A stretch of DNA of 64,000 nucleotides from Thermotogota bacterium. GTDB taxonomy: Bacteria > Thermotogota > Thermotogae > Thermotogales > Thermotogaceae. Below, piece after piece: positions 11 to 54,815 of this stretch (position 1 is the first letter of the stretch; each line of letters begins with the position of its first letter). The notes below the pieces were generated by a model. That model was not told the DNA's origin and searched no databases. It worked only from the letters and a program-made list of their open reading frames with translations. The translations under genes and the position numbers were made by a program. Location of the stretch: positions 1-64,000 of the forward strand of contig JAUQPE010000024.1 in assembly GCA_030550515.1 (NCBI GenBank). The letters are read 5' to 3'.

Positions 11-511
11 GTGAAATCCTTGTCGGTTCAATTCGAAGTGGTTGATGTGCCGATTCCCGAAAGGTCAAACGTCATCATAGGACACGCACACTTCATAAAG
101 ACCGTTGAGGATCTGTACGAGGTGCTCGTGACCACAAATCCAAACCTCGAGTTCGGTATCGCCTTCAACGAAGCGAGTGGACCGTGTTTGGTGAGGTACG
201 AGGGAAACAGTGAGGATCTCGTAAAACAGGCTATTGAGACTGCCCAAAAGATCGGGGCGGGACACACTTTCGTGATCTACATCAGGGGAGGTTACCCTAT
301 AAACGTGTTGAACCAGATCAAGAACGTTCAAGAAGTTTGCAGGGTGCACGCGGCGACGGCCAACCCTCTGCAGGTGATCGTGGCAGTCACGCCACAAGGG
401 AGGGGAATCGTGGGGGTTGTGGACGGTTATCCCCCGAAAGGTGTGGAGACCGAGGAAGACAAAAAGAAGAGGCACGCGTTTTTAAGAGAGGTGACGAAAT
501 ACAAGAAATGA
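11..511 (+). CDS. Adenosine-specific kinase family protein (DUF355-type)
   Basis: A 166-residue protein that I recognise as the small archaeal/thermophile family annotated as adenosine-specific kinase (Adenosine_kin, formerly DUF355). Conserved-looking stretches are [13 protein letters not shown] near residue 25, [11 protein letters not shown] near 55 and the glycine-rich [13 protein letters not shown] near 127. It has no signal peptide or membrane segment, so it is probably cytosolic. Start is GTG at 11 behind a G-rich ribosome site in bases 1-9; the window edge hides anything upstream. The gene ends in a strong terminator and faces ttuA. The kinase name comes from the family; the physiological role is not established by the sequence. 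Confidence 0.8.
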
Positions 512-537
512 AGAGCCCCATCAAGTGGGGCTCTTTT
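511..537. terminator. Shared hairpin between two convergent genes
   Basis: A perfect 10-bp stem (511-520 pairing with 526-535) with loop TCAAG is followed by a T-run on the plus strand, a textbook intrinsic terminator for the gene at 11-511. The stem and loop also contain the last codons and the TGA stop (523-521) of ttuA on the minus strand. On the minus strand the tract after the stem is only CTTCATTT, so termination in that direction is less certain. Confidence 0.85.
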
Positions 538-1435
538 TCATCTTCTTATCGAGTTGTTCCTTCAGCCTGCAAATGGAACACTTGGTGGCCGTGGTGGGGT
601 AGCCGCACACTTCACACTCCCTGAGTTCCTCCACCACGTACCTTGGTTCTCCTTTCTTCCTCAAAAAACCCAAGTAAAAGTTCAACGTAACGCCTGGTTG
701 CTCTTCCTCCAACTCCCTCAGGAGTCTCTTGTACATCAGTGAGGTGGCCCCCACGGAGAACGGACACGCTTCCTGGACGTGAGGTATGCCGTTCAGGCGA
801 GCATAGGTTCTGATGTCCTCCTCGTAGTTGAAGACCAACGGTTTGGCCTTCGGTACGAGTTTTTCGTGCGTTTTCGGAAGGTACGGCCACTGGCGTTCCA
901 TGTATCCTTCTTGCCAGTGGATGATGTTGCCGAGTAGTACCGCTGCCTCGTCATCGAGGTTGTGACCCGTCGCCACCACTTCAAAACCGTTCTCGTAAGC
1001 GAACTTGTTCATCACGTACCTTCTTATAACACCGCAAACCGAACACACCGGCCTCCTCAAAGTGAAAGCGATCTGTTGAGGGGACAATCCTTCGAACATT
1101 TCGGTCGCGTCGACCACGTGTAACTTAGAGGAAAGCGTTTCTGCGTTCTTTTGGACGATTTCGAGAGTGTTTTGAACGATCTCATCCTTCGCCGTTTTTA
1201 TGAAAAGCGCCTCCACGTTGTAGTTGAGCTTCACGAGGATGTGCCATAGAGAAACGCTGTCCTTCCCTCCGGAGACAGCCACGAGCACTTTGTTTTTTCT
1301 TCCAAACATCTTAAACTTCTTTATCACCTTTTCTACACGACCTTCTATGAATTCGTTGAAGTGATCTTTACACAACTTCAGATTGTAATGTCTTAATTTT
1401 ATCAAAGCTTCTTTGCCACAAATGGTGCACTTCAA
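521..1435 (-). CDS. ttuA: tRNA 2-thiouridine synthetase TtuA (TIGR00269 family)
   Basis: TtuA thiolates U54 of tRNA to 2-thiouridine, a heat-stabilising modification, using an Fe-S cluster and a sulfur carrier. Visible in 304 residues: N-terminal zinc site C3, C6, C22, H25; PP-loop SGGKDS at about 55-60; catalytic/cluster cysteines in RRPVCSVCG (near 130) and EACPFS (near 222); C-terminal zinc site CEVCG and CSIC. Start chosen as TTG at 1435, because GGGAGG sits six bases upstream and the product then begins MKCT as in T. maritima; a GTG at 1450 would add five residues. It is divergent from clpC. Confidence 0.9.
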   Translation of the reverse strand: MKCTICGKEALIKLRHYNLKLCKDHFNEFIEGRVEKVIKKFKMFGRKNKVLVAVSGGKDSVSLWHILVKLNYNVEALFIKTAKDEIVQNTLEIVQKNAETLSSKLHVVDATEMFEGLSPQQIAFTLRRPVCSVCGVIRRYVMNKFAYENGFEVVATGHNLDDEAAVLLGNIIHWQEGYMERQWPYLPKTHEKLVPKAKPLVFNYEEDIRTYARLNGIPHVQEACPFSVGATSLMYKRLLRELEEEQPGVTLNFYLGFLRKKGEPRYVVEELRECEVCGYPTTATKCSICRLKEQLDKKMKKSPT

Positions 1436-1484
1436 AGGTCTCCCTCCCACAACGAAATATCGTCATTGAATTTGGTTCGCTTAA

Positions 1485-1490
1485 ATTTTA
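1485..1490 (-). promoter_or_regulatory. Predicted ttuA promoter -10
   Basis: On the minus strand TAAAAT is preceded by TGG, an extended -10 element. It would give a leader of about 40 bases before the TTG at 1435. The -35 region is weak. Prediction from pattern only. Confidence 0.5.
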
Positions 1491-1510
1491 CCACAACATA
1501 ATTCTTGGGA

Positions 1511-1527
1511 AAACGTTTTGAACGTTT
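1511..1527. promoter_or_regulatory. Inverted repeat between ttuA and clpC promoters
   Basis: AAACGTT-TTG-AACGTTT is a perfect 7-3-7 inverted repeat midway between the two divergent -10 elements, just upstream of where a clpC -35 would lie. It resembles a dimeric repressor site. It does not match CIRCE (HrcA) or the CtsR box. Confidence 0.45.
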
Positions 1528-1555
1528 CCGCAAGGAAAAGAGTCCATAGCGGTGA

Positions 1556-1561
1556 TATAAT
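1556..1561 (+). promoter_or_regulatory. Predicted clpC promoter (extended -10)
   Basis: TGATATAAT is an exact extended -10 (TG, one base, TATAAT) about 30 bases before the clpC ATG, leaving a short leader that holds GGAGGT seven bases from the start. No good -35 is seen. Confidence 0.6.
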
Positions 1562-1590
1562 GGAATTGGTCAGATTCGGAGGTGATATCC

Positions 1591-4056
1591 ATGTTCGACA
1601 AGTTCTCAGAAAAGACAGCACAGATCTTTGTAACAGCCCAAGAAGAAGCCAAAGAGTTGGGCCATTCGTACGTTGGAACGGAGCACTTGCTCCTGGCCAT
1701 TTTGAAAGTCGACAGGGGTCCCGTCGTGGAGCTCTTGGAAGAGATGGGAGTCACGTACTCGAAAGTGAGATCCGAGATCATCTCCATGGTCGGTATGGGG
1801 ATGCGTGGCTTTGTACCTTCACCCCAGATGACTCCCAGGGCGAAAAGGGTGACCGAACTCGCCTACGAAGAGGCGAAAATCCTTGGGAGCGATAAGATAA
1901 ACCCTGAACACATCCTCCTCGGCATACTCAGGGAAGGCGAGGGTATCGCTGTCCACATCCTGAGAAAGTTGGGCGTCGATCTGAACACCCTGAGAAGGGA
2001 AATCATAGACCTGTACTCCTTCTCGGACAGCAGGGACAGGTTCGACGAGGAGACCTTCAACTACTCCAGCGTGAAACAGCTCGAGGGTTTTGGTGTGAAC
2101 CTCACCGAGCTCGCCGCGAAGAAAGAGCTCGATCCGGTGATAGGGCGCGATCAGGAGATAGAGAGAGTGATGCAAGTTTTGGTCAGGAGAAAGAAGAACA
2201 ACCCGGTCCTCATAGGAGAACCCGGTGTTGGAAAGACAGCGATCGTTGAGGGGCTCGCTCAGAGGATCGTTGCCGGTGAGGTCCCGGAGATCCTGAAGAA
2301 CAAGATCATATTCTCGCTAGATGTGGCGGCCCTCGTGGCCGGCACCAAGTACAGGGGAGAGTTCGAAAAACGCATGAAGAAACTCTTGCAAATCGTCACC
2401 AAGGACAGAAACATAATACTCTTCATCGACGAGATACACACCATAGTGGGTGCCGGATCGGCTGAAGGCGCCATAGACGCGGCAAACATCCTGAAGCCCG
2501 CCCTCGCCCGTGGAGAGATTAGCTGTATCGGAGCCACCACCCCGGACGAGTACAGGAAGTACATAGAGAAAGATGCCGCACTCGAGAGAAGGTTCCAGAA
2601 GATCTACGTGAGGGAACCGTCGGAAGAAGAAACGCTTGCGATACTGAGGGGTCTCAGGAAGAAATACGAAAGTCACCACAGGGTGATCTACACCGACAAA
2701 GCTCTGGAAGCTGCTGTTTACCTGTCGAAGAGGTACATAACGGATCATTACCTCCCGGACAAGGCGATAGACGTGATAGACGAGGCTGGCGCCAGGGCGA
2801 GGCTCAGGGTGTTCGTGATACCCCCAGAACTGAAGGTGCTCAAAGAAGAACTAGAGAGGTTGAGGGCGGAGAAGGAACTCGCCGTGTTGAATCAAGATTA
2901 CGAAAAGGCCGCTCGTCTCAAAGAGCACGAAATGGAAATCGAAACTGAGTACAGGAAGAAGTACTCCGAGTGGAGGCGTTTTGCCGAGACTTCCGTGGTC
3001 AAAGTGGACGTCGACGACGTGGCGGATGTCGTCGCCTCCTGGACGGGTATTCCTCTCAAGAAACTCGAAGAAACGGAAGCCGAAAAGCTGCTGAAGCTCG
3101 AGGAGGCCCTCCACGAAAGGATAGTGGCTCAGGAGGAAGCCATCAAGGCCGTTGCGAGGGCGATAAGGAGGGCACGCAGTGGTTTAAAGGACCCGAGAAG
3201 ACCCATCGGTGTCTTCCTGTTCCTTGGACCCACCGGTGTGGGTAAGACGGAACTCGCGAAGGCGCTCGCGGAGTACTTGTTCGGTGACGAAAAGGCCCTT
3301 ATCAGATTCGACATGAGCGAGTACATGGAGAGGTTCTCCGTCTCCAGACTCATAGGGGCACCTCCAGGGTACGTCGGATACGAAGAAGGAGGAACTCTCA
3401 CAGAAAAAGTGAGAAGGAGACCGTTCTCCGTGATCCTATTCGATGAGATAGAGAAGGCGCACCCTGACATCTTCAACCTCTTGCTCCAGATAATGGATGA
3501 CGGAAGACTCACGGATTCTCAAGGTCACGAGGTCGACTTCAGGAACACCATCATCATAATGACCAGCAACCTCGGAAGCTCTTACATAAACAAGGCAAAA
3601 AAAGCTATAGGGTTTGTGACGGACGAAAACGACGAAAAGGACTTCGAACAGATCAAAAATCTCGTTCTGGATGAGGTAAAGCGCACTTTCAGACCAGAGT
3701 TCCTGAACAGGATCGATGAAATCATCGTGTTCCACCCTCTCAAGAGGGAGCACATAGAACAGATCATAGAAATCCTTTTGAAAGACATCAGAAAGAGACT
3801 CCAAGAGAAGAACATGAAGCTCGTGCTCACGAAAGGCGCAAAAGACTTCTTGGTGGAGAAAGGTTTCGATCCTGTCTACGGTGCAAGACCACTGAAGAGG
3901 GCCATCCAAAGGTATGTGGAGGATCCTCTCGCAGAAGAAATCTTGAGAGGCAAGTTCCAAGAAGGTGACACGATAGTCTGTAAGGCGACAAAAGACGGAT
4001 TAAAGTTCGTGAAGCAGAAGAGCGAAGAAAAAGCTCAAGAGAAGGTGGTGAAGTGA
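1591..4056 (+). CDS. clpC: ATP-dependent protease ATPase subunit ClpC
   Basis: HSP100 unfoldase that feeds proteins to ClpP; 821 residues. Order: Clp N-domain repeats (about 5-145), AAA-1 with Walker A GEPGVGKT near 209 and Walker B LFIDEIHT, a UVR-type coiled middle segment near 435-465, AAA-2 with GPTGVGKT near 546 and [11 protein letters not shown], then an IGF loop (KKAIGFVTD) typical of ClpP-binding partners. Start ATG at 1591 has GGAGGT seven bases upstream; a GTG at 1582 is in frame but lies inside that site. It heads a clpC-radA-disA operon, with radA starting on a GTGA overlap. Likely stress-regulated; the upstream inverted repeat is a candidate operator. Confidence 0.97.
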
Positions 4057-5435
4057 AAAAGTTTGTCTGTTCCAACTGCGGATACTCTTCTCCGAAATGG
4101 TTCGGAAGGTGTCCGCAGTGTGGAGAATACGATTCGGCCGAGGAAGCGATCTTGGAGAAGAAGGGCAGGGAGGCACACGCCTCCCTGCTTTTGAATTTGG
4201 AAGAGGCTTCGAGTCTCTCACTCGAAAGGCTCTCGACTGGCTTTTCCGAGCTCGACAGGGTCCTCAGGGGTGGCCTCGTCCCAGGTCAAGTGTTGCTTTT
4301 GTCAGGTGAACCAGGCATCGGAAAAAGTACTCTTGCACTCCAAGTGTGTGAAAAGTTCGCCGAGAAGGGAACAGTGGTTTACGTTTCGGGCGAGGAATCA
4401 CCACAGCAGATCAAGATGAGGGCGGACAGGTTGAAACTCAAGAACAAGGAGAACATCCTGCTGTCGACTGAGAACGACCTCGATGCGGTGCTCACCGAGA
4501 CGTCGGAAAAGAAACCCCGTTTTCTCGTGATCGATTCTCTTCAAACGGTCTTTTCTTCGGAACTAGGCAGCAGTCCCGGAAGCGTCTCCCAGGTGAAGGC
4601 TGTGACCATGAAGGTCATAAATTTCTCCAAAAAACGCATGATTCCAGCGATGATCGTTGGTCACGTGACCAAAGAGGGGGAGATCGCGGGACCCAAGATG
4701 GTGGAGCACATGGTTGACACGGTCACTTACTTCGAAGGGGACAGGAGGACGGGGCTCAGAATCTTGAAAGTGGTGAAGAACAGGTTTGGGCCTTCGGATG
4801 AGGTGGCGGTCTTCGAACTCGAAGAGAACGGATTCAAGCAAGTGGAAAGTCCCTCTTTCGTCGAGGAGGGTGTGGAGCTTCCCGGAAACGTCGTCACGTG
4901 TGTCTTCGAAGGCACGAAACCGTTCGTCGTGCAGGTTCAAGCGTTGGTCTCAAAGAACAGGGTCTTCGCCCCGAAAAGGGTGGGGAAAGGGATCGACACG
5001 AGTAGGATCATGCTCTTGGTAGCGGTCCTGAGCAAAGTTGTGAAGATACCGTTGGAGCACCACGACATCTACGTGAACGTCGTGGGCGGGTTGAGGATCA
5101 CCGATCCAGCTGCCGATCTCGCCATCGCTCTTGCCATCGTTTCGTCTTACCTCGAGTTGCCCATGCCTGGTGTTGCAGCGCTCGGGGAGATCGGTTTGGA
5201 TGGAAAGGTGAGGAAAGTTTACAATATTAAGAGAAGACTTGGCGCGTTGAAAGGCTTCAAAAAGATCATCGTACCCGCCCTCGAAGCGGAGAGCGAAGAA
5301 GAAAGCGTCATCGCCGTTCAGGATCTCAGAGAAGCGGTGAAAATTCTGGGAGGTGACTTCTCTGTATCCACCAGAGTTGATAGAGAAGATAAAGTTGATA
5401 TCCCCTGGGACCGCCCTGAGGAAGGCGTTGGATGA
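4053..5435 (+). CDS. radA: DNA repair protein RadA/Sms
   Basis: RecA-like branch-migration factor for recombination intermediates; 460 residues, normal length. It has an N-terminal C4 zinc finger (CSNC and CPQC in the first 25 residues), Walker A GEPGIGKST near 85, the RadA-specific KNRFG motif near 241 and a C-terminal Lon-protease-like domain from about 300. The GTG start overlaps the clpC stop (GTGA). Its 3' end overlaps disA by 83 bases, a long overlap. The clpC-radA-disA neighbourhood is also seen in Firmicutes, where RadA and DisA act together at recombination intermediates. Confidence 0.97.
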   Translation: MKKFVCSNCGYSSPKWFGRCPQCGEYDSAEEAILEKKGREAHASLLLNLEEASSLSLERLSTGFSELDRVLRGGLVPGQVLLLSGEPGIGKSTLALQVCEKFAEKGTVVYVSGEESPQQIKMRADRLKLKNKENILLSTENDLDAVLTETSEKKPRFLVIDSLQTVFSSELGSSPGSVSQVKAVTMKVINFSKKRMIPAMIVGHVTKEGEIAGPKMVEHMVDTVTYFEGDRRTGLRILKVVKNRFGPSDEVAVFELEENGFKQVESPSFVEEGVELPGNVVTCVFEGTKPFVVQVQALVSKNRVFAPKRVGKGIDTSRIMLLVAVLSKVVKIPLEHHDIYVNVVGGLRITDPAADLAIALAIVSSYLELPMPGVAALGEIGLDGKVRKVYNIKRRLGALKGFKKIIVPALEAESEEESVIAVQDLREAVKILGGDFSVSTRVDREDKVDIPWDRPEEGVG

Positions 5436-6420
5436 CATAATAAAGGCAAATTTTGGTGCCTTGTTGTTCCTTGTGGACGATCCAAAGAAGTACGCCGACG
5501 TAATACAAGGGGGATTCTGGTTGGACACCGAGTTCTCGGCCGAGAGGGTGTACGAACTCGCGAAGATGGACGGAGCAATCGTGATTTCCGAAGATCTTTC
5601 GCGCATATACTACGCGAACGTCCACCTGGTTCCAGATCCCACGATACCTACCTCGGAGACCGGCACGCGTCACAGAACCGCGGAAAGACTGGCAAAGCAA
5701 ACCGGGAAAGTGGTCATCGCTGTGTCGAGGAGGCGCAACGTGATCACCCTCTACTACAAGAACTACAAGTACGTGGTCAACCAGGTGGGTTTCCTCATCG
5801 CGAAAGTGACGCAAGCGATCAGCACGCTCGAAAAGTACAAAGAAAACTTCGTGAAGCTGCTTTCGGACCTTGAGGTCTTGGAACTCGAGAACCGCGTGTA
5901 CCTGTCGGATGTGGTGAGGACCGTCGTGAAAGGACTCGAGCTTTTGAAAGTTTCCGAGGAAGTGAAACCCTACCTCGTTGAACTCGGCGAGGAGGGAAGG
6001 CTTGCGAGGATCCAGATGAGGGAGCTCATCGAGGATGTCGACGATTTACTCGTGCTCTTGTTCATGGACTACGCTGCCGAAGAGATGGATGAGGAAACCG
6101 CGAAAGAACTCATCAAGGATTTCGTGGTGAAGAGAGATCCGACGCCTGTGTCGGTCGCGCGGTTTCTCGGGTACGACGTACAACAAGTGGGTCAGCTCGA
6201 CGACATCTCCGTCGCGGCGAGAGGTTTCAGACTTTTGAAGACGGCCGCACGGATTCCGTTGAGCATAGGGTACAACGTCGTAAAGATGTTCAAAACACTC
6301 GATCAGATCAGCAAGGCATCGATCGAAGAGCTCAAGAAAGTTGATGGAATCGGAGAGAAAAGGGCGAGAGCTATAACGGAGAGCATCAGCTCTTTAAGGC
6401 ACAGGAAGGCTTCGGAGTGA
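5353..6420 (+). CDS. disA: DNA integrity scanning protein DisA, diadenylate cyclase
   Basis: Makes cyclic di-AMP from two ATP and senses branched DNA. The 355-residue protein has the DAC domain with KMDGAIV (DGA motif, near 73) and GTRHRTAE (RHR motif, near 107), a helical spine, and a C-terminal helix-hairpin-helix (KVDGIGEKRARAI) that binds DNA. It aligns end to end with T. maritima DisA as I remember it. The GTG start at 5353 sits inside the coding end of radA. The GGGAG just before it is closer than usual, so initiation may depend on ribosomes finishing radA. Confidence 0.95.
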   Translation: MTSLYPPELIEKIKLISPGTALRKALDDIIKANFGALLFLVDDPKKYADVIQGGFWLDTEFSAERVYELAKMDGAIVISEDLSRIYYANVHLVPDPTIPTSETGTRHRTAERLAKQTGKVVIAVSRRRNVITLYYKNYKYVVNQVGFLIAKVTQAISTLEKYKENFVKLLSDLEVLELENRVYLSDVVRTVVKGLELLKVSEEVKPYLVELGEEGRLARIQMRELIEDVDDLLVLLFMDYAAEEMDEETAKELIKDFVVKRDPTPVSVARFLGYDVQQVGQLDDISVAARGFRLLKTAARIPLSIGYNVVKMFKTLDQISKASIEELKKVDGIGEKRARAITESISSLRHRKASE

Positions 6421-6428
6421 GGAAGTGT

Positions 6429-6434
6429 TAAAAT
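6429..6434 (+). promoter_or_regulatory. Possible hydrogenase promoter
   Basis: TGTTAAAAT shortly after the disA stop fits an extended -10 and would give a leader of about 70 bases containing a seven-T tract. A second AT-rich candidate (TAATAT, 6477-6482) lies closer to the gene. I cannot choose between them. Confidence 0.35.
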
Positions 6435-6509
6435 CGTAGGTAAGGGACTAGCTTTTTTTCAGAGAGAATTTGAGAATAATATCACAAAGTGATCGGGGAG
6501 GTGTTTCCG

Positions 6510-8258
6510 GTGGCGGAAGTGAACGTCGTCATAAACGGAAGGAATGTCACCGTACCCAGCGATATAACCGTCCTTGAAGCTTGTGAAAGAGTTGGGGTAG
6601 AAGTCCCCGCCCTCTGTCACCATCCAAGGCTCGGCGAATCCATTGGAGCTTGCCGAGTGTGCGTGGTAGAAGTGGAAGGAAGCAGAAACTTGCAGCCTGC
6701 CTGCGTGACGAAAGTGAGAGATGGCATGGTGATCAAAACGTCCACCGAAAGGGTGAAGACCGCCAGAAAATTCAACCTTGCCTTGCTTTTGTCCGAGCAC
6801 CCGAACGATTGTATGACCTGCGAGGCGAACGGTAGGTGTGAATTTCAGGACTTGATATACAAGTACGACGTTGACCCCATATTCGGTTATGGCCCCAAAG
6901 AAGGATTAATCGACAGAAGCAGTCCTGCGATCGTCAGGGAACTGTCGAAGTGCGTGAAGTGCCAGAGGTGCGTGAGGGTGTGTTCCGAAGTACAGGGAAT
7001 GCACGTCTACTCCATGGTCGGAAGGGGTTACAAGACATACCCTGGAACCCCCTTTGACATGCCTGTCTACGAAACTGATTGCATAAGCTGCGGTCAGTGT
7101 TCGGTCTTTTGCCCAACAGGAGCGATCGTTGAGAACTCGGCCGTGAAGGTGGTCCTCGAAGAGCTCGAGAAGAGAGAGAAGATCCTCGTGGTTCAAACGG
7201 CACCGTCCGTTAGGGTAGCGATAAGTGAGGAGTTCGGTTATGCACCTGGCACGATCTCCACAGGACGGCTCGTCGCCGCCCTCAGAAGACTTGGTTTCGA
7301 CTACGTGTTCGACACCAACTTTGGAGCTGACCTCACCATAATGGAAGAAGGGAGCGAATTCTTGCGCAGGTTGGAAGAGGGTGACCTTGAAGACTTGCCG
7401 ATGTTCACTTCTTGCTGCCCTGCGTGGGTGAACTTGGTGGAGAAGGTGTATCCAGAGCTCAGAACAAGGCTTTCAACGGCGAAATCCCCGCAAGGGATGC
7501 TCTCCGCCCTCGTCAAAACTTACTTCGCCCAGAAACTTGGGGTCAAACCCGATGACATCTTCCACGTTTCGATCATGCCGTGCACGGCCAAAAAAGATGA
7601 GGCTATGAGGAAACAACTCATGGTGAACGGCTCTCCCGCCGTCGATGTCGTGCTCACGACGAGAGAGCTCGGAAAACTTATAAGGATGAGGAAGATTCCG
7701 TTCGCCAACCTGCCGGAAGAGGACTACGATGCTCCTCTTGGGATCTCTACAGGTGCAGCTGCACTGTTTGGTGTCACGGGAGGCGTGATGGAGGCCGCTT
7801 TGAGGACTGCGTACGAGCTGAAGACGGGAAAAACACTTCCAAAACTCGTCTTCGAAGAAGTGAGAGGGTTGAAGGAAGTGAAAGAAGCGGAGATAGACCT
7901 CGACGGAAAGAAGATCAGGGCGGCTGTTGTGCACGGAACGGCGAACACGAGGAAGCTGGTGGAGAAGATACTCAACAGGGAAGTGAGGTACCACTTCGTC
8001 GAGGTGATGGCATGTCCCGGCGGATGCATCGGTGGTGGTGGACAACCGTACAGCAGGGATCCAGAGGTTCTGAGGAAGCGAGCAGAAGCCATCTACACCA
8101 TAGACGAGAGGATGACGATAAGGAAGTCTCACGAAAACCCCGCCATAAAGAAGCTCTACGAAGAATTCCTCGAACACCCGTTGAGTCATAGATCACATGA
8201 ACTGTTGCACACTCACTACGAAGACAGGTCTAGGAAGCGAAGGATAGCCGTGAGGTGA
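6510..8258 (+). CDS. [FeFe]-hydrogenase catalytic subunit, CpI-like domain order
   Basis: Evolves or consumes H2. The 582 residues carry, in order: a plant-type [2Fe-2S] domain (CHHPRLGESIGACRVC, then PAC), the His-Cys [4Fe-4S] site (HPNDCMTC...C), two ferredoxin [4Fe-4S] motifs (CVKCQRCVRVC and CISCGQCSVFC), the H-cluster loops TSCCPAW (near 300), MPCTAKKDE (near 355) and MACPGGCIGGGGQPY (near 500), and a C-terminal small-subunit-like tail ending HELLHTHY. The proton-path FGADLTIMEE is intact, so it looks active. GTG at 6510 has GGGGAGGT seven bases upstream. It lacks the C-terminal [2Fe-2S] domain found in trimeric HydA. No HydB/C gene is adjacent; NuoE/F-like genes lie at 32338-34433. Confidence 0.93.
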   Translation: MAEVNVVINGRNVTVPSDITVLEACERVGVEVPALCHHPRLGESIGACRVCVVEVEGSRNLQPACVTKVRDGMVIKTSTERVKTARKFNLALLLSEHPNDCMTCEANGRCEFQDLIYKYDVDPIFGYGPKEGLIDRSSPAIVRELSKCVKCQRCVRVCSEVQGMHVYSMVGRGYKTYPGTPFDMPVYETDCISCGQCSVFCPTGAIVENSAVKVVLEELEKREKILVVQTAPSVRVAISEEFGYAPGTISTGRLVAALRRLGFDYVFDTNFGADLTIMEEGSEFLRRLEEGDLEDLPMFTSCCPAWVNLVEKVYPELRTRLSTAKSPQGMLSALVKTYFAQKLGVKPDDIFHVSIMPCTAKKDEAMRKQLMVNGSPAVDVVLTTRELGKLIRMRKIPFANLPEEDYDAPLGISTGAAALFGVTGGVMEAALRTAYELKTGKTLPKLVFEEVRGLKEVKEAEIDLDGKKIRAAVVHGTANTRKLVEKILNREVRYHFVEVMACPGGCIGGGGQPYSRDPEVLRKRAEAIYTIDERMTIRKSHENPAIKKLYEEFLEHPLSHRSHELLHTHYEDRSRKRRIAVR

Positions 8259-8273
8259 GGGGACCCCCCTCAC
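8255..8273 (+). terminator. Hairpin after hydrogenase gene
   Basis: GTGAGGGG and CCCCTCAC form a perfect 8-bp stem with a 3-base loop overlapping the hydrogenase stop codon. The tract that follows is pyrimidine-rich (TTCCTTCTTCT) rather than pure T, so it may attenuate transcription or protect a 3' end instead of stopping all transcription into the ABC operon. Confidence 0.5.
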
Positions 8274-49413: not shown

Positions 49414-50727
49414 GTGAAGATGGCTTTCAGAGGAGGTATACATCCACCGCAACTGAAGGAGTTCACAAAGGACAAACCGATAGAAACGATGCCGCTGCCC
49501 AACAAGGTTTTCGTCTTCTTGGCGAACCACGCTGGTAACCCCTCCAAGTTGATCGTCTCGCCCGGGGACGAGGTGAAGACGGGGCAGATCATAGGTGTGC
49601 CGGACGGCTACATCTCCTCTTACGTGCACTCCCCCCTCACTGGAAGGGTGGTCGAAGTGAAGAAAATCTTTCACCCTGTGCTTGGGAGACCCATGGATGC
49701 GGTTGTGATAGAGAGAATTTCGGAAGATCAAGATCAGTGGATGAGGCTCGATACGAGTGGGGACTTTGAAAGGATGACCAGGGAGGAGATTCTGGATTTG
49801 GTGAGAAGGGCTGGTGTGGTGGGACTCGGTGGAGCGATGTTCCCCACACACGTGAAGCTTTCACCTCCTCCGGAAAAAAAGGTGGACACACTGATAATAA
49901 ACGGCGCCGAATGTGAATCGGTACTCACCATAGATCACCGTTTGATGCTCGAGCGTGCCGAGGAGATCCTTCTTGGAATCTTAATCATGATGAAGGTTCT
50001 CAAAGTTGAGAAGGCTATGCTGGGAATAGAAGACAACAAGAGAGATGCTTACGAACACTTGAAGAGAGTGTTCAAGGGCTACCCTGTGGAGTTGAAACTT
50101 TTGAAGACTAAGTACCCGCAAGGAGCTGAAAAACAACTCATCTACACGCTCACCGGAAGGAGAGTCCCCCGTGGAGGTCTTCCAATGGATGTAGGGGTGA
50201 TCGTCCAAAACGTCGGAACGTGTGTGGCGGTGAAAGAAGCAGTAATCGATGGGAAACCTTTGGTAGAGAGAGGTCTCACGGTGAGTGGCGACGGTGTAAG
50301 GGAACCGAAGAATCTGATGGTTAGGATAGGAACTCCCGTTTCAGAAGTCCTAGAATACTGCGGTGGGATAGATGAGAAAACCGAAAAAGTGTTGTTGGGA
50401 GGACCTATGACAGGGATCTCGATCACGGATCTGAGCATACCCATCTTGAAGGGGACGTCTGGTATCACTGCCCTTCTTCCTAGGGAAACGGGGGTGCAGA
50501 AACCGTGCATCAGGTGCAGCAGGTGTGTGATCGCTTGCCCCATGAATCTCCAGCCTTACCTTCTGTACCTCCTCGCGACGAAGAGGAGGTACGACGACGC
50601 TGTGAATGAAGGGTTGATGGATTGTATCGAGTGTGGTTCCTGCTCTTACGTCTGTCCTTCCAAGATAGAGCACGTCAGGCACATAAAACTTGCCAAGAAC
50701 GTCTACAGGGCCACGAGGAGGGGTTGA
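49414..50727 (+). CDS. rnfC: Rnf electron transport complex subunit RnfC
   Basis: Peripheral subunit carrying NADH/FMN and two [4Fe-4S] clusters in the ferredoxin:NAD+ oxidoreductase that pumps ions. 437 residues: N-terminal barrel (FRGGIHPPQLKEFT), Rossmann/FMN part with RAGVVGLGGAMFPTHVKL near 130 and NGAECES, and clusters CIRCSRCVIACP near 367 and CIECGSCSYVCP near 405. GTG at 49414 has GGAGGTGAT five bases upstream. First of rnfC-D-G-E-A-B. Confidence 0.95.
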   Translation: MKMAFRGGIHPPQLKEFTKDKPIETMPLPNKVFVFLANHAGNPSKLIVSPGDEVKTGQIIGVPDGYISSYVHSPLTGRVVEVKKIFHPVLGRPMDAVVIERISEDQDQWMRLDTSGDFERMTREEILDLVRRAGVVGLGGAMFPTHVKLSPPPEKKVDTLIINGAECESVLTIDHRLMLERAEEILLGILIMMKVLKVEKAMLGIEDNKRDAYEHLKRVFKGYPVELKLLKTKYPQGAEKQLIYTLTGRRVPRGGLPMDVGVIVQNVGTCVAVKEAVIDGKPLVERGLTVSGDGVREPKNLMVRIGTPVSEVLEYCGGIDEKTEKVLLGGPMTGISITDLSIPILKGTSGITALLPRETGVQKPCIRCSRCVIACPMNLQPYLLYLLATKRRYDDAVNEGLMDCIECGSCSYVCPSKIEHVRHIKLAKNVYRATRRG

Positions 50728-50729
50728 GG

Positions 50730-51686
50730 ATGAAACTTGTCAGTGCGTATCCACCACACCTTCGCGACACGGACGACGTTCGGAAAGTCATGTACGACGT
50801 TTTGATAGCCTTGACACCGGTGGTGATAGGCGCTGCGTACTTTTTCGGTTGGTATGCCCTTCTTTTGTGTGTGCTCGGAACGGTCCTCGGCGAACTCTTC
50901 GACTTCTTCGTGATGAGGTTTCTGAGAAAATCAAAAGATTTCGTTCCTGACGGAAGCGGGGCGGTCACCGGTTTGCTGCTCGCTTTAAACGTGAGCACTA
51001 GGCTTCCCATTTGGGCCTTCGTGATCGGTTTGGTCTTCGCTTTAGGAGTAGGAAAGCACGTGTTCGGCGGCCTTGGACAGAACATATTCAACCCTGCGCT
51101 CACAGGGAGGGTTTTCCTGCTCATCTCCTTCCCCACCTACATGACGGAGTGGGTAGACCCCCTGTCCGGTTTTTGGAAGTCTCCTTGGGACGCGACAACT
51201 GCCGCTACTCCTCTCGCGCTCTTCAAAGAGAAAGGTATCGTAACTTCTTACTGGGACTTGTTCATAGGAAACGTGAGGGGATCGATAGGAGAAACGAGCG
51301 CCTTGCTGTTGATCGTTGGGTTTCTGTACCTAGTCGTCAGAAAGAGGATCAAGCTCCTCATCCCAATATCCTATCTGGGGACAGTCTTTCTACTCTCGGC
51401 TGTCTTCTACTCGGTCAATCCGAAGTACGGAGATCCCACATTCCACCTTCTGAGTGGCGGATTGATGTTGGGAGCACTTTTCATGGCAACCGACATGGTC
51501 ACAAGCCCCATTACACCCCTGGGTCAGGCGATATTTGGCTTTGGATGCGGTTTCCTCACGCTCATAATAAGGCTGTTTGGATCCTATCCTGAGGGTGTAT
51601 CCTTTTCCATCCTGTTCATGAACGCGCTGGTCCCCTTGATAGACAGGGTGACCAAACCACGCATCTTCGGGGAGGTAGGCAGATGA
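50730..51686 (+). CDS. rnfD: Rnf complex subunit RnfD
   Basis: Membrane subunit with covalently bound FMN, 318 residues, about nine hydrophobic segments. The flavinylation-type stretch is TTAATPLALF near 160 (threonine in A-T-P-L), with GKHVFGGLGQNIFNPALTGR upstream of it. ATG at 50730 has GAGGAGGGG before it, two bases after the rnfC stop; sequence further upstream in this frame is rnfC in another frame. Overlaps rnfG by four bases. Confidence 0.94.
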   Translation: MKLVSAYPPHLRDTDDVRKVMYDVLIALTPVVIGAAYFFGWYALLLCVLGTVLGELFDFFVMRFLRKSKDFVPDGSGAVTGLLLALNVSTRLPIWAFVIGLVFALGVGKHVFGGLGQNIFNPALTGRVFLLISFPTYMTEWVDPLSGFWKSPWDATTAATPLALFKEKGIVTSYWDLFIGNVRGSIGETSALLLIVGFLYLVVRKRIKLLIPISYLGTVFLLSAVFYSVNPKYGDPTFHLLSGGLMLGALFMATDMVTSPITPLGQAIFGFGCGFLTLIIRLFGSYPEGVSFSILFMNALVPLIDRVTKPRIFGEVGR

Positions 51687-52369
51687 TGAAAAAGGAAATG
51701 TTGAAAACCGGTTTGACGTTGATGGTGTTCACCGTAGTGGCAGGTCTCGCGCTGAGCCTTGTGTACGTTGCAACCAAAGATAGGATCAAGAAATCGGAAA
51801 TCTCGGCAAAGTTGGAAGCCATAAATCAAGTTTTGAGGGATCCAATCTCGGGAGCAATCATTGTTGATGAGAGAGAAGTGAACGAAATCGTTCGGAGAGA
51901 AGGCGTGGAGAGTCGAACACTGAAAGAGTACAAGGAAGGAACGGTGTTGGGACCTCTTTACACTTTTTTATCCAGGGACGGTAGAAAAGTGTACGTCCTA
52001 TCGGCTCAAGCGCCTGGTTATGGAGGAAACGTGGTGACGATGGCGTGTTTCATCGAAAACGGAGAGGGATTAATGTTGAACGCCATTCGGGTGTTGGATT
52101 ACTCCCAGGAAACCCCGGGATTGGGCGCGAAGATAGGTGAAACCACTGTTCAAGAGAGGTTTTCTTTGATTCCTCCCGAAGGGCTCGAACACGGCGTGAG
52201 GGTGGACAAAGATGCGGGCAGTCCGCAGGGAACGGTTGAGGAATTGAAGGCGAAGGGGATCGTCAAGGTGAGCGACGTGATGACCGGTGCAACTATCACC
52301 TCGAGGGCTGTGACCACCGCAATAAACCTCATGTACAAGTACCTGACCGAGGAGGTTTTGAGAAGATGA
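51683..52369 (+). CDS. rnfG: Rnf complex subunit RnfG
   Basis: Extracytoplasmic flavoprotein with one N-terminal membrane anchor (about 10-30). 228 residues. The covalent FMN attachment motif (S/T)GAT reads MTGATITSRAV near 200, and GYGGNVVTMACF and TPGLGAKIG are family features. Maturation requires an ApbE flavin transferase, which is not in this window. Confidence 0.94.
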   Translation: MMKKEMLKTGLTLMVFTVVAGLALSLVYVATKDRIKKSEISAKLEAINQVLRDPISGAIIVDEREVNEIVRREGVESRTLKEYKEGTVLGPLYTFLSRDGRKVYVLSAQAPGYGGNVVTMACFIENGEGLMLNAIRVLDYSQETPGLGAKIGETTVQERFSLIPPEGLEHGVRVDKDAGSPQGTVEELKAKGIVKVSDVMTGATITSRAVTTAINLMYKYLTEEVLRR

Positions 52370-52959
52370 GCCGAATGAAAGAACTGGTCAAGGGTTTTGT
52401 GAAAGAAAACCCAACCTACGTCCAGGTACTCGGTATGTGCCCCACACTTGCCGTCACAACAAACGCGGTGAACGGCCTCGGTATGGGGCTTGCTACCACC
52501 TTCGTTTTGACACTCTCCAACGTTGTCATCTCTTCCATCAGAAAGTTGGTGCCCGAAAAGATCAGGATACCGATTTTCATAGTGGTGATCGCCACCTTCG
52601 TCACGATCATAGACTTGCTTATGCACGCCTATCTCTACGACCTGTGGAAGACTCTGGGACTCTACATACCGCTCATAGTCGTCAACTGTATAATAATGGG
52701 GAGAGCTGAAGCCTACGCGTCCAAGCACGGTGCGCTCGATTCTCTGATGGACGGGATCGGAATGGGCCTAGGATTCACGGGATCCCTCGTTCTTCTGGGA
52801 AGTATCAGAGAGCTCTTCGGCAACGGAACAATATTTGGGATAAAGGTGTGGTCCCTGAGGGTGTTCCTGGGGATACTACCACCTGGTGCTTACATCACCC
52901 TTGGTCTTCTTTCCGGACTCTTCGTCTTCGTCGGCAAAAAGAGAGGTGATAAGAAATGA
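52366..52959 (+). CDS. rnfE: Rnf complex subunit RnfE
   Basis: Six-helix membrane subunit, 197 residues, paralogous to RnfA and inverted relative to it in the membrane. Conserved cysteines lie in [10 protein letters not shown] near 24 and [12 protein letters not shown] near 107, positions that in solved Rnf/NQR complexes help hold a [2Fe-2S] cluster within the membrane between RnfA and RnfE. Four-base overlaps on both sides. Confidence 0.94.
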
Positions 52960-53531
52960 AAGTTTTCCTTCTCTTCTTCGCCGCGATTTTCATAAACAAC
53001 TTCATACTCGCTAGGTTCCTCGGGATATGTCCGTTTCTTGGAGTTTCGAAAAAGCTGGAAACCGCTCTAGGGATGGGACTTGCTGTCATATTCGTTATGA
53101 CCGTTTCGTCGGCGATAGCGTGGACCCTAGACAGGCTCCTCATCAGTTTGGGATTGGATTTCCTGAGGACAATCGTTTTCATCGTGGTGATTGCCACGTT
53201 TGTTCAGTTCGTGGAGTTGTTCCTGAAGAAAACGAATCCCGGTTTGTACGAGGCGCTCGGTATATTCCTTCCTCTCATCACCACAAACTGCGCGATACTT
53301 GGCGTGGTGATTCTGAACAGCATGATGAAACTCGGTTTCCTCGAAGCCGTTTTTCACGCACTGGGCTCGAGCCTGGGTTTCACCATGGCCCTCGTGATCT
53401 TTGCGGGTGTGAGGGAGAAACTTGAAATGTACGATCTACCGGAACCGTTCAGAGGGACCGCAGGGGCCCTCATCACAGCCGGACTTCTCTCCATGGCGTT
53501 CATGGGTTTCCAAGGAATGGTGAAGATCTGA
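52956..53531 (+). CDS. rnfA: Rnf complex subunit RnfA
   Basis: Six-helix membrane subunit, 191 residues: [19 protein letters not shown] near 15-33 and [14 protein letters not shown] near 107 contain the cysteine pair equivalent to that in RnfE. Starts on ATGA with rnfE. The rnfB gene follows after 13 bases with a strong ribosome site. Confidence 0.95.
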
Positions 53532-53544
53532 GGAGGTGCTCTGT

Positions 53545-53829
53545 GTGGTAGTGGTTTACTCCGTTCTGCTCATGGGAGTTCTTGGGTTCAGCTTTGGGGT
53601 TTTTTTGGCGTACGCCGCTCAAAAGTTCAAGGTGGAAGAGGACAACAGGCTGAAGGAGATCTTAGGGATACTCCCAGGTATAAATTGCGGGGCGTGTGGT
53701 TTTCCAGGGTGCGAAGCCTACGCCAAAGCCATTTTGAGTGGGAAAGCTGACGTCAACCGGTGCCTTCCTGGAAGACCCCAAGGGGTACCCGAGAAGATAA
53801 AAAAAGTGCTCGAGGGTTCAAGCGGATGA
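53545..53829 (+). CDS. rnfB: RnfB, very short form without ferredoxin domains
   Basis: Only 94 residues: one membrane segment (about 1-22), then a single cluster domain, INCGACGFPGCEAYAKAI followed by the fourth cysteine in NRCLPG, ending at EKIKKVLEGSSG. Most RnfB proteins continue into at least two ferredoxin [4Fe-4S] motifs and run near 190-330 residues. The stop overlaps the dprA ATG (ATGA), and no CxxCxxC appears in any frame after it, so this looks like a genuine short subunit, not a frameshift. GTG at 53545 has GAGGAGG about eight bases upstream; a GTG at 53536 lies inside that site. Confidence 0.88.
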   Translation: MVVVYSVLLMGVLGFSFGVFLAYAAQKFKVEEDNRLKEILGILPGINCGACGFPGCEAYAKAILSGKADVNRCLPGRPQGVPEKIKKVLEGSSG

Positions 53830-54815
53830 CCCCTGTGGAGTTGGCGGTACTTTCCACTTACGGGCACTTTTCACGCGAAGAGATAGAGAGAGAACTTTCT
53901 TTGGAAGCGTTTTTGAGAAACGCCGACCCGAAGAAAGCGGAAAGGTTCTTGAAGATGGGGGGACTCGAGAAGATCGAAGAACAGGAAGAACTCTTGAAGA
54001 AGGCGGGAGCGAAGGCACTCTCATTCTGGGACGAAGGGTATCCAGAACTTTTGAGAAACGGTGTTCATCCCCCACTGGTTCTCTTCGTGATCGGAAACGC
54101 GAATCTTTTGAAAGAGCCTTCGATCTCCGTTGTGGGTACCAGGAAACCGACAAGTTATGGGGTGAAGGTCACCAGGGAGTTCGTCTCAGAACTCTCCAAG
54201 TACTTCGTCGTTGTCTCTGGGATGGCCTACGGAATAGACGCCGTCGCTCATGAGGTATCTTTGGAGAGCGGTGGAAAAACCGTGGCGGTATTGGGAACAG
54301 GTGTCGACGTGGTCTACCCGAAAACCAACGAGAAGCTGTACAGAAAGATCACCGAAAAGGGTTGTGTTGTGAGCGAGTTCCTGATGGGAACAGGTCCAAA
54401 GAAACATCACTTCCCCGCGCGAAACAGGATCGTGGCGGGTCTCTCCGTGGCCACGCTAGTCATGGAGGCGCCAGAGAAAAGTGGCGCTCTGATAACGGCA
54501 AACTTTGCGGCGGACGCCGGAAGGGATGTTTTTGCCGTGCCCGGAGACGTGGACAGGATCACGAGTGAGGGGACGAACGGATTGATCAAGTCGGGTGCTT
54601 ATCCTTTAACTGATCCAAGAGATGTGCTCGAAAGGTACGGTTTGAGAGTAAGAAGGGAAGAACCTCAGCTTGAGGGGGAAGAGGAGGTAGTGCTGGAGGC
54701 CCTCAAGGAAGGGAAAAGTCTCGAAGAAGTGGCCGAAACCCTAGGGTGGGAAGTGCAGAGGGTCCTCTCGATCGTTTCGGCACTCGAATTGAAGGGCTTC
54801 GTGAGATTTTCATGA
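53826..54815 (+). CDS. dprA: DNA processing protein DprA
   Basis: Loads RecA onto incoming single-stranded DNA during transformation. 329 residues: N-terminal helical/HhH part, Rossmann-like core with SVVGTRKPTSYGV near 102, SGMAYGIDAVAHE near 133, VAVLGTGVDVVYPKTNEKLY, FPARNRIVAGLS near 195 and PGDVDRITSEGTNGLIKSGA, then a C-terminal winged-helix-like segment (EVAETLGWEVQRVLS). ATG overlaps the rnfB stop. Its presence suggests natural competence is possible. Confidence 0.95.
   Translation: MTPVELAVLSTYGHFSREEIERELSLEAFLRNADPKKAERFLKMGGLEKIEEQEELLKKAGAKALSFWDEGYPELLRNGVHPPLVLFVIGNANLLKEPSISVVGTRKPTSYGVKVTREFVSELSKYFVVVSGMAYGIDAVAHEVSLESGGKTVAVLGTGVDVVYPKTNEKLYRKITEKGCVVSEFLMGTGPKKHHFPARNRIVAGLSVATLVMEAPEKSGALITANFAADAGRDVFAVPGDVDRITSEGTNGLIKSGAYPLTDPRDVLERYGLRVRREEPQLEGEEEVVLEALKEGKSLEEVAETLGWEVQRVLSIVSALELKGFVRFS

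Follow-up and report, generated by a model that had tools for sequence, protein, structure and literature searches.

A short RnfB at the end of a complete rnf operon

How do electrons enter an Rnf complex whose RnfB ends soon after its first iron-sulfur cluster? The question is raised by the window analyzed here, a 64,000-nt stretch of DNA from a Thermotogota bacterium, in which the gene order rnfC-D-G-E-A-B spans 49414–53829 and is followed by dprA. The features of the locus are as follows:

49414..50727 (+): rnfC (NAD/FMN, two [4Fe-4S]); basic C-terminal helix kept
50727..51686 (+): rnfD; PF03116, 382 bits
51683..52369 (+): rnfG, FMN-binding domain; PF04205
52366..52959 (+): rnfE; PF02508
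52956..53531 (+): rnfA; PF02508
53532..53538 (+): Shine-Dalgarno-like GGAGGTG, 5′ of the rnfB GTG start at 53545 (from the sequence)
53545..53829 (+): rnfB, 94 aa; TM helix, FdI [4Fe-4S] domain and basic C-terminal helix (PF04060, TIGR01944, AlphaFold model)
53671..53769 (+): FdI FeS motif CX2CX4CX16C, one [4Fe-4S]; PF04060 positions 1–33
53770..53826 (+): conserved basic tail 3′ of the fourth Cys (PGRPQGVPEKIKKVLEGSSG region), from alignment and charge comparison
53826..54815 (+): dprA, PF02481; its ATG overlaps the rnfB stop by 4 bp; outside the Rnf complex

The initial annotation had described a 94-residue RnfB behind rnfCDGEA, with the other subunits intact and the stop tightly coupled to dprA, and all of this was confirmed: rnfC, D, G, E and A are complete, each with its expected Pfam family. 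The rnfB frame runs from GTG at 53545 to TGA at 53827–53829 (~9.9 kDa), while the mechanical ORF start, a GTG at 53536, falls within the Shine-Dalgarno-like run. PF04060 was the sole Pfam family on the protein (59.2 bits versus a cut-off of 23), and the NCBIfam model TIGR01944 (rnfB) scored 76.8 bits (cut-off 68.7) over its positions 5–89 of 190. Two features of RnfB (TIGR01944) were present, namely an N-terminal TM helix followed by the FdI motif CX2CX4CXnC and occurrence with rnfCDGEA, as were those of a minimal RnfB of the Thermotoga maritima type (a frame closing soon after FdI, a single cluster motif and a basic C-terminal helix). An AlphaFold model (mean pLDDT, 82; helices 2–30, 37–45, 59–67 and 84–96 in a 97-aa numbering) agrees with this layout of TM helix, FdI and short basic helix. 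Foldseek searches with the model returned CFeSP domains, at weak E-values in keeping with its small size.

A C-terminal Fer4 polyferredoxin domain was absent from the window RnfB by both the Pfam scan and the end of the TIGR01944 match. The earlier wording that the protein has no ferredoxin domains accordingly needs a small correction: the Fer4 polyferredoxin (FdII/III) is missing, but the ferredoxin-type FdI domain (PF04060/CFeSP-type) is kept with its [4Fe-4S] motif. The window RnfB is a genuine minimal form, consisting of a membrane anchor and a single predicted Fe-S cluster. The polyferredoxin is the usual feature of RnfB, but given T. maritima, it is not universal.

Precedent and related systems

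Although the initial annotation implied that such a protein was undescribed, short RnfB is already known, because its size, predicted cluster and activity in T. maritima as well as its FdI-only nature have been published. Specifically, T. maritima RnfB has a mass of 10.56 kDa and one predicted 4Fe-4S cluster, a number that is a prediction still to be established according to its authors (Kuhns et al. 2020, PMC7414866). The purified T. maritima Rnf displayed Na+-dependent Fd:NAD+ oxidoreductase activity with Clostridium pasteurianum ferredoxin and transports Na+, and all six subunits were confirmed by MALDI-TOF in a further purified preparation (PMC7414866). That this RnfB consists of FdI only has been used to argue that FdI must bear a cluster (Vitt et al. 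2022, PMC9588780). The T. maritima and window proteins share one FdI domain, a mass of ~10 kDa and the last place in rnfCDGEAB, and come from different genera of the same family. In our set, a genome from another genus of this family (G090), presumably that of T. maritima, encodes a 100-aa RnfB that is 69% identical to the window RnfB and precedes dprA.

The RnfB proteins of C. tetanomorphum, Acetobacterium woodii and Azotobacter vinelandii (PDB 7zc6, 9eri and 8ahx) align with the window RnfB over ~75–85 residues of TM helix and FdI but continue into a C-terminal Fer4 polyferredoxin with two to seven further clusters, of which the window RnfB has none. FdI is the mobile one-cluster domain in RnfB proteins of known structure; no structure of a short-RnfB complex was found in the PDB. 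In A. woodii, the [2Fe-2S] cluster of RnfA/E receives electrons from B8, the cluster equivalent to that of FdI (Kumar et al. 2025, PMC11889175), and FdI, as the proposed donor to RnfA/E, has been probed there with cluster mutants (PMC11889175; PMC9588780). The Fe-S domain and motif of FdI also occur in the N-terminal [4Fe-4S] domain of the CFeSP large subunit (4djd, 2ycl and 4c1n), which, unlike RnfB, belongs to a cytosolic corrinoid protein. According to the literature, NqrF of Na+-NQR works in a similar manner, with a TM-tethered mobile one-cluster domain feeding NqrD/E, the homologues of RnfA/E; however, it has a [2Fe-2S] cluster and an FAD/NADH domain and shares no homology with RnfB.

Probable electron entry through FdI

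Three entry routes had been proposed for the window complex: the single cluster, RnfC or a separate ferredoxin-like protein. We favor the first and consider it likely that FdI receives its electron straight from a soluble acidic ferredoxin and hands it on to the [2Fe-2S] cluster of RnfA/E, making RnfB the Rnf entry subunit cut down to its essential shuttle module. Direct entry at FdI is favored because the T. maritima complex, with a like short RnfB, works with C. pasteurianum ferredoxin (PMC7414866). The acidic, single-[4Fe-4S] ferredoxin would dock on a basic surface formed by FdI and its C-terminal helix, perhaps assisted by the basic C-terminal helix of RnfC, and would reduce the FdI cluster. 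Tethered FdI would then swing into the RnfA/E groove and hand the electron to the [2Fe-2S] cluster, from where, judging from published work on other Rnf complexes, it would follow the canonical U-shaped path RnfG → RnfD → RnfC → NAD+, pumping Na+.

The proposed dock, FdI with its C-terminal helix, is suggested by the charge of the tail, defined as the 22 residues that follow the fourth Cys and compared between long RnfB and short or double forms (the latter with two FdI domains; see below). The mean charge was ~+1.4 for short and double forms versus −1.0 for long forms; by family, the means of the former ranged from +0.3 to +3, with family f10 near neutral (~0). Family means differed from long forms with a Mann-Whitney p of ~1e-6 in a test that ignores phylogeny, and thermophily may account for part of the difference. 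In the alignment, the basic tail occupies the place of the linker to FdII/III, and the short forms have a basic C-x-P-G-[K/R] motif at the site where long forms have PGG (PG[K/R] in 69 of 73 short or double forms; PGG in 40 of 48 long forms). The soluble one-cluster ferredoxin of the window genome is acidic, with a net charge of −7.

Alternatively, a separately encoded Fe-S protein might substitute for FdII/III on the complex, relaying electrons to FdI. This would fit with the retention in RnfC of the basic C-terminal helix, which binds RnfB in A. woodii (PMC11889175), and with the several small 2×[4Fe-4S] proteins encoded in the window genome. However, none of these has the C-terminal architecture of RnfB, and they look like parts of other enzymes. 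We found 13 PF12838 stretches in the window genome, which by inspection belong to hydrogenase subunits, RnfC, and DUF362-like, glutamate-synthase-like, PorD-like and dehydrogenase Fe-S proteins. The C-terminal part of long RnfB as a query matched only generic Fer4 stretches of ~50 aa, so that neither search revealed the split-off RnfB polyferredoxin that the initial annotation had suggested looking for. In addition, no ferredoxin-like gene adjoins the examined rnfCDGEA operons that are separated from rnfB, and the purified T. maritima complex was active when clostridial ferredoxin was added (PMC7414866). We therefore regard a relay protein as unlikely. The only other PF04060 match in the window genome lies at the C terminus of a 539-aa [FeFe]-hydrogenase-like protein (G000:C6:89320-89403; L033).

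Entry through RnfC is disfavored because it would skip RnfA/E/G and, with them, the route of ion pumping reported from A. woodii (PMC11889175). No compensating change was detected in RnfC of short-RnfB complexes: the C-terminal helix has kept its length and charge, and fixed differences are confined to two columns. As this basic helix is unchanged, RnfC may still accept a partner, perhaps ferredoxin itself.

The short form suggests that the Rnf ion pump requires no input module beyond the mobile FdI cluster. If FdI alone suffices, the variable polyferredoxin of RnfB is an optional adaptor. With the natural series of one FdI, two FdI, and FdI with several further clusters, what the additional clusters contribute can be tested directly.

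Short RnfB across Thermotogota

Whether the short form is general had been raised by the initial annotation, and we scanned 103 Thermotogota genomes with PF04060 (RnfB) and PF02508 (RnfA/E). RnfB-type PF04060 matches occurred in 99 genomes, 83 of which, from ten families, have a short RnfB (open frames of 91–136 aa) with cysteines and tail conserved in the alignment. The other 16 are the Kosmotogaceae genomes with RnfB, all of which are reduced differently, with frames of 231–240 aa and two PF04060 domains; no Fer4 was found in nine aligned and two scanned proteins of this kind. These comprise a TM helix, FdI, a linker and a second FdI-type domain (e.g., L065 7909–8601 and L068 7919–8617).

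RnfA/E was present in 100 genomes and co-occurred with RnfB in 99. Three genomes lack both (G003, G011 [96% complete] and G054), and a single, incomplete one (G031) has RnfA/E without RnfB. Since their presence and absence coincide, short RnfB tracks the Rnf complex. A role for the short protein in some other membrane redox process, outside Rnf, could be read from families f3 and f11 and part of f10, in which rnfB lies apart from rnfCDGEA (in f3 still adjoining dprA). Yet rnfB persists even when it is unlinked, rnfCDGEA is present at another site in those genomes without a further RnfB being seen there, genomes devoid of RnfA/E are also devoid of short RnfB, and the purified T. maritima complex contained all subunits (PMC7414866), which together make this reading very improbable. 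Behind rnfA, no replacement gene was present in the examined operons separated from rnfB. The idea that f3 genomes with an orphan RnfB had lost rnfCDGEA was rejected, as the operon was located elsewhere in them.

A sequencing or assembly error near the stop, or a pseudogene remnant of long RnfB, for which only the unusual length speaks, can be dismissed with near certainty because 82 other Thermotogota genomes have a frame that likewise stops soon after FdI, cysteines and tail are conserved across ten families, and the T. maritima orthologue is published (PMC7414866).

Origin of the short form

Beyond Thermotogota, we scanned genome contigs and considered the 80 best loci, using the organism labels of the MAG records. 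Open frames among these loci fell into a short (93–125 aa) and a long (262–392 aa) class, apart from a contig-cut frame of 193 aa and a double-FdI form of 236 aa that lie between the two. Short RnfB was found in rnf operons of Anaeroplasma/Acholeplasmatales-type and Bacillales-labelled MAGs (L150, L161, L162 and L181) and of a Clostridiales MAG (L131), as well as in a Brevinematales MAG without rnf neighbors (L164).

In a tree of RnfA+E+D rooted on Nqr, from which a mislabelled Nqr-like set (L047) was left out, Thermotogota grouped in a single clade of 53 tips (support, 1.0) that lies within the long forms. The short-form group of Bacilli (support, 1.0) was placed outside this clade, as was L131, and the double-FdI forms made up one clade (support, 0.999); the deeper nodes have modest support. 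Nesting among long forms indicates that short RnfB is derived, the loss having occurred independently at least twice and probably three times. The polyferredoxin arm would have disappeared a single time in the Thermotogota Rnf ancestor and independently in other lineages; judged from the tree, short RnfB arose separately in Acholeplasmatales/Bacilli and probably also in the Clostridiales MAG. An additional rnf operon with long RnfB in one Thermotogota genome (G102; L106) fell outside the Thermotogota clade and looks acquired.

We see about an even chance that loss of the polyferredoxin arm is a recurrent path to a minimal Rnf, taken in Thermotogota, Acholeplasmatales/Bacilli, the Clostridiales MAG and perhaps Brevinematales, with the basic PG[K/R] tail evolving on FdI into a site where ferredoxin docks directly, and with Kosmotogaceae regaining a two-cluster input at a later stage through duplication of FdI. 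In a limited novelty test, we did not find the phylum-wide or convergent reduction, the basic tail, the Kosmotogaceae double FdI or the unlinked rnfB in the open-access literature. As far as this search shows, these appear to be new, as do the derived nature of the short form and the lack of a split partner in the window genome.

Neighboring genes and related complexes

The L131 locus (25–8273; MAG Pmx449_bin21) comprises rnfDGEAB behind cytochrome c-like and cytochrome-biogenesis-like genes, and rnfC was not found there. In Anaeroplasma-type operons, a protein of 73–75 aa that contains Cys and has a single apparent TM helix is encoded between rnfA and rnfB (L161 7770–7991, L162 7686–7910 and L181 7767–7994); it is perhaps a cluster-maturation factor like NqrM.

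Many Thermotogota encode a second, NqrBCDEF-like complex with a short NqrB (L108 3613–7405 and L110 6517–10390; also L109 and L111–L113), as reported for T. thermarum and T. lettingae (PMC4148951). No NqrA (PF05896) was found at the Thermotogota nqr loci, the listed matches being RnfC of rnf operons, with a few weak exceptions elsewhere. A small ORF lies behind nqrF in L108 and L110. Finally, several Thermotogota carry a fusion of an ArsP-type permease (PF03773) with a PF04060 Fe-S domain at its C terminus (L006, L020, L090–L093 and L107).
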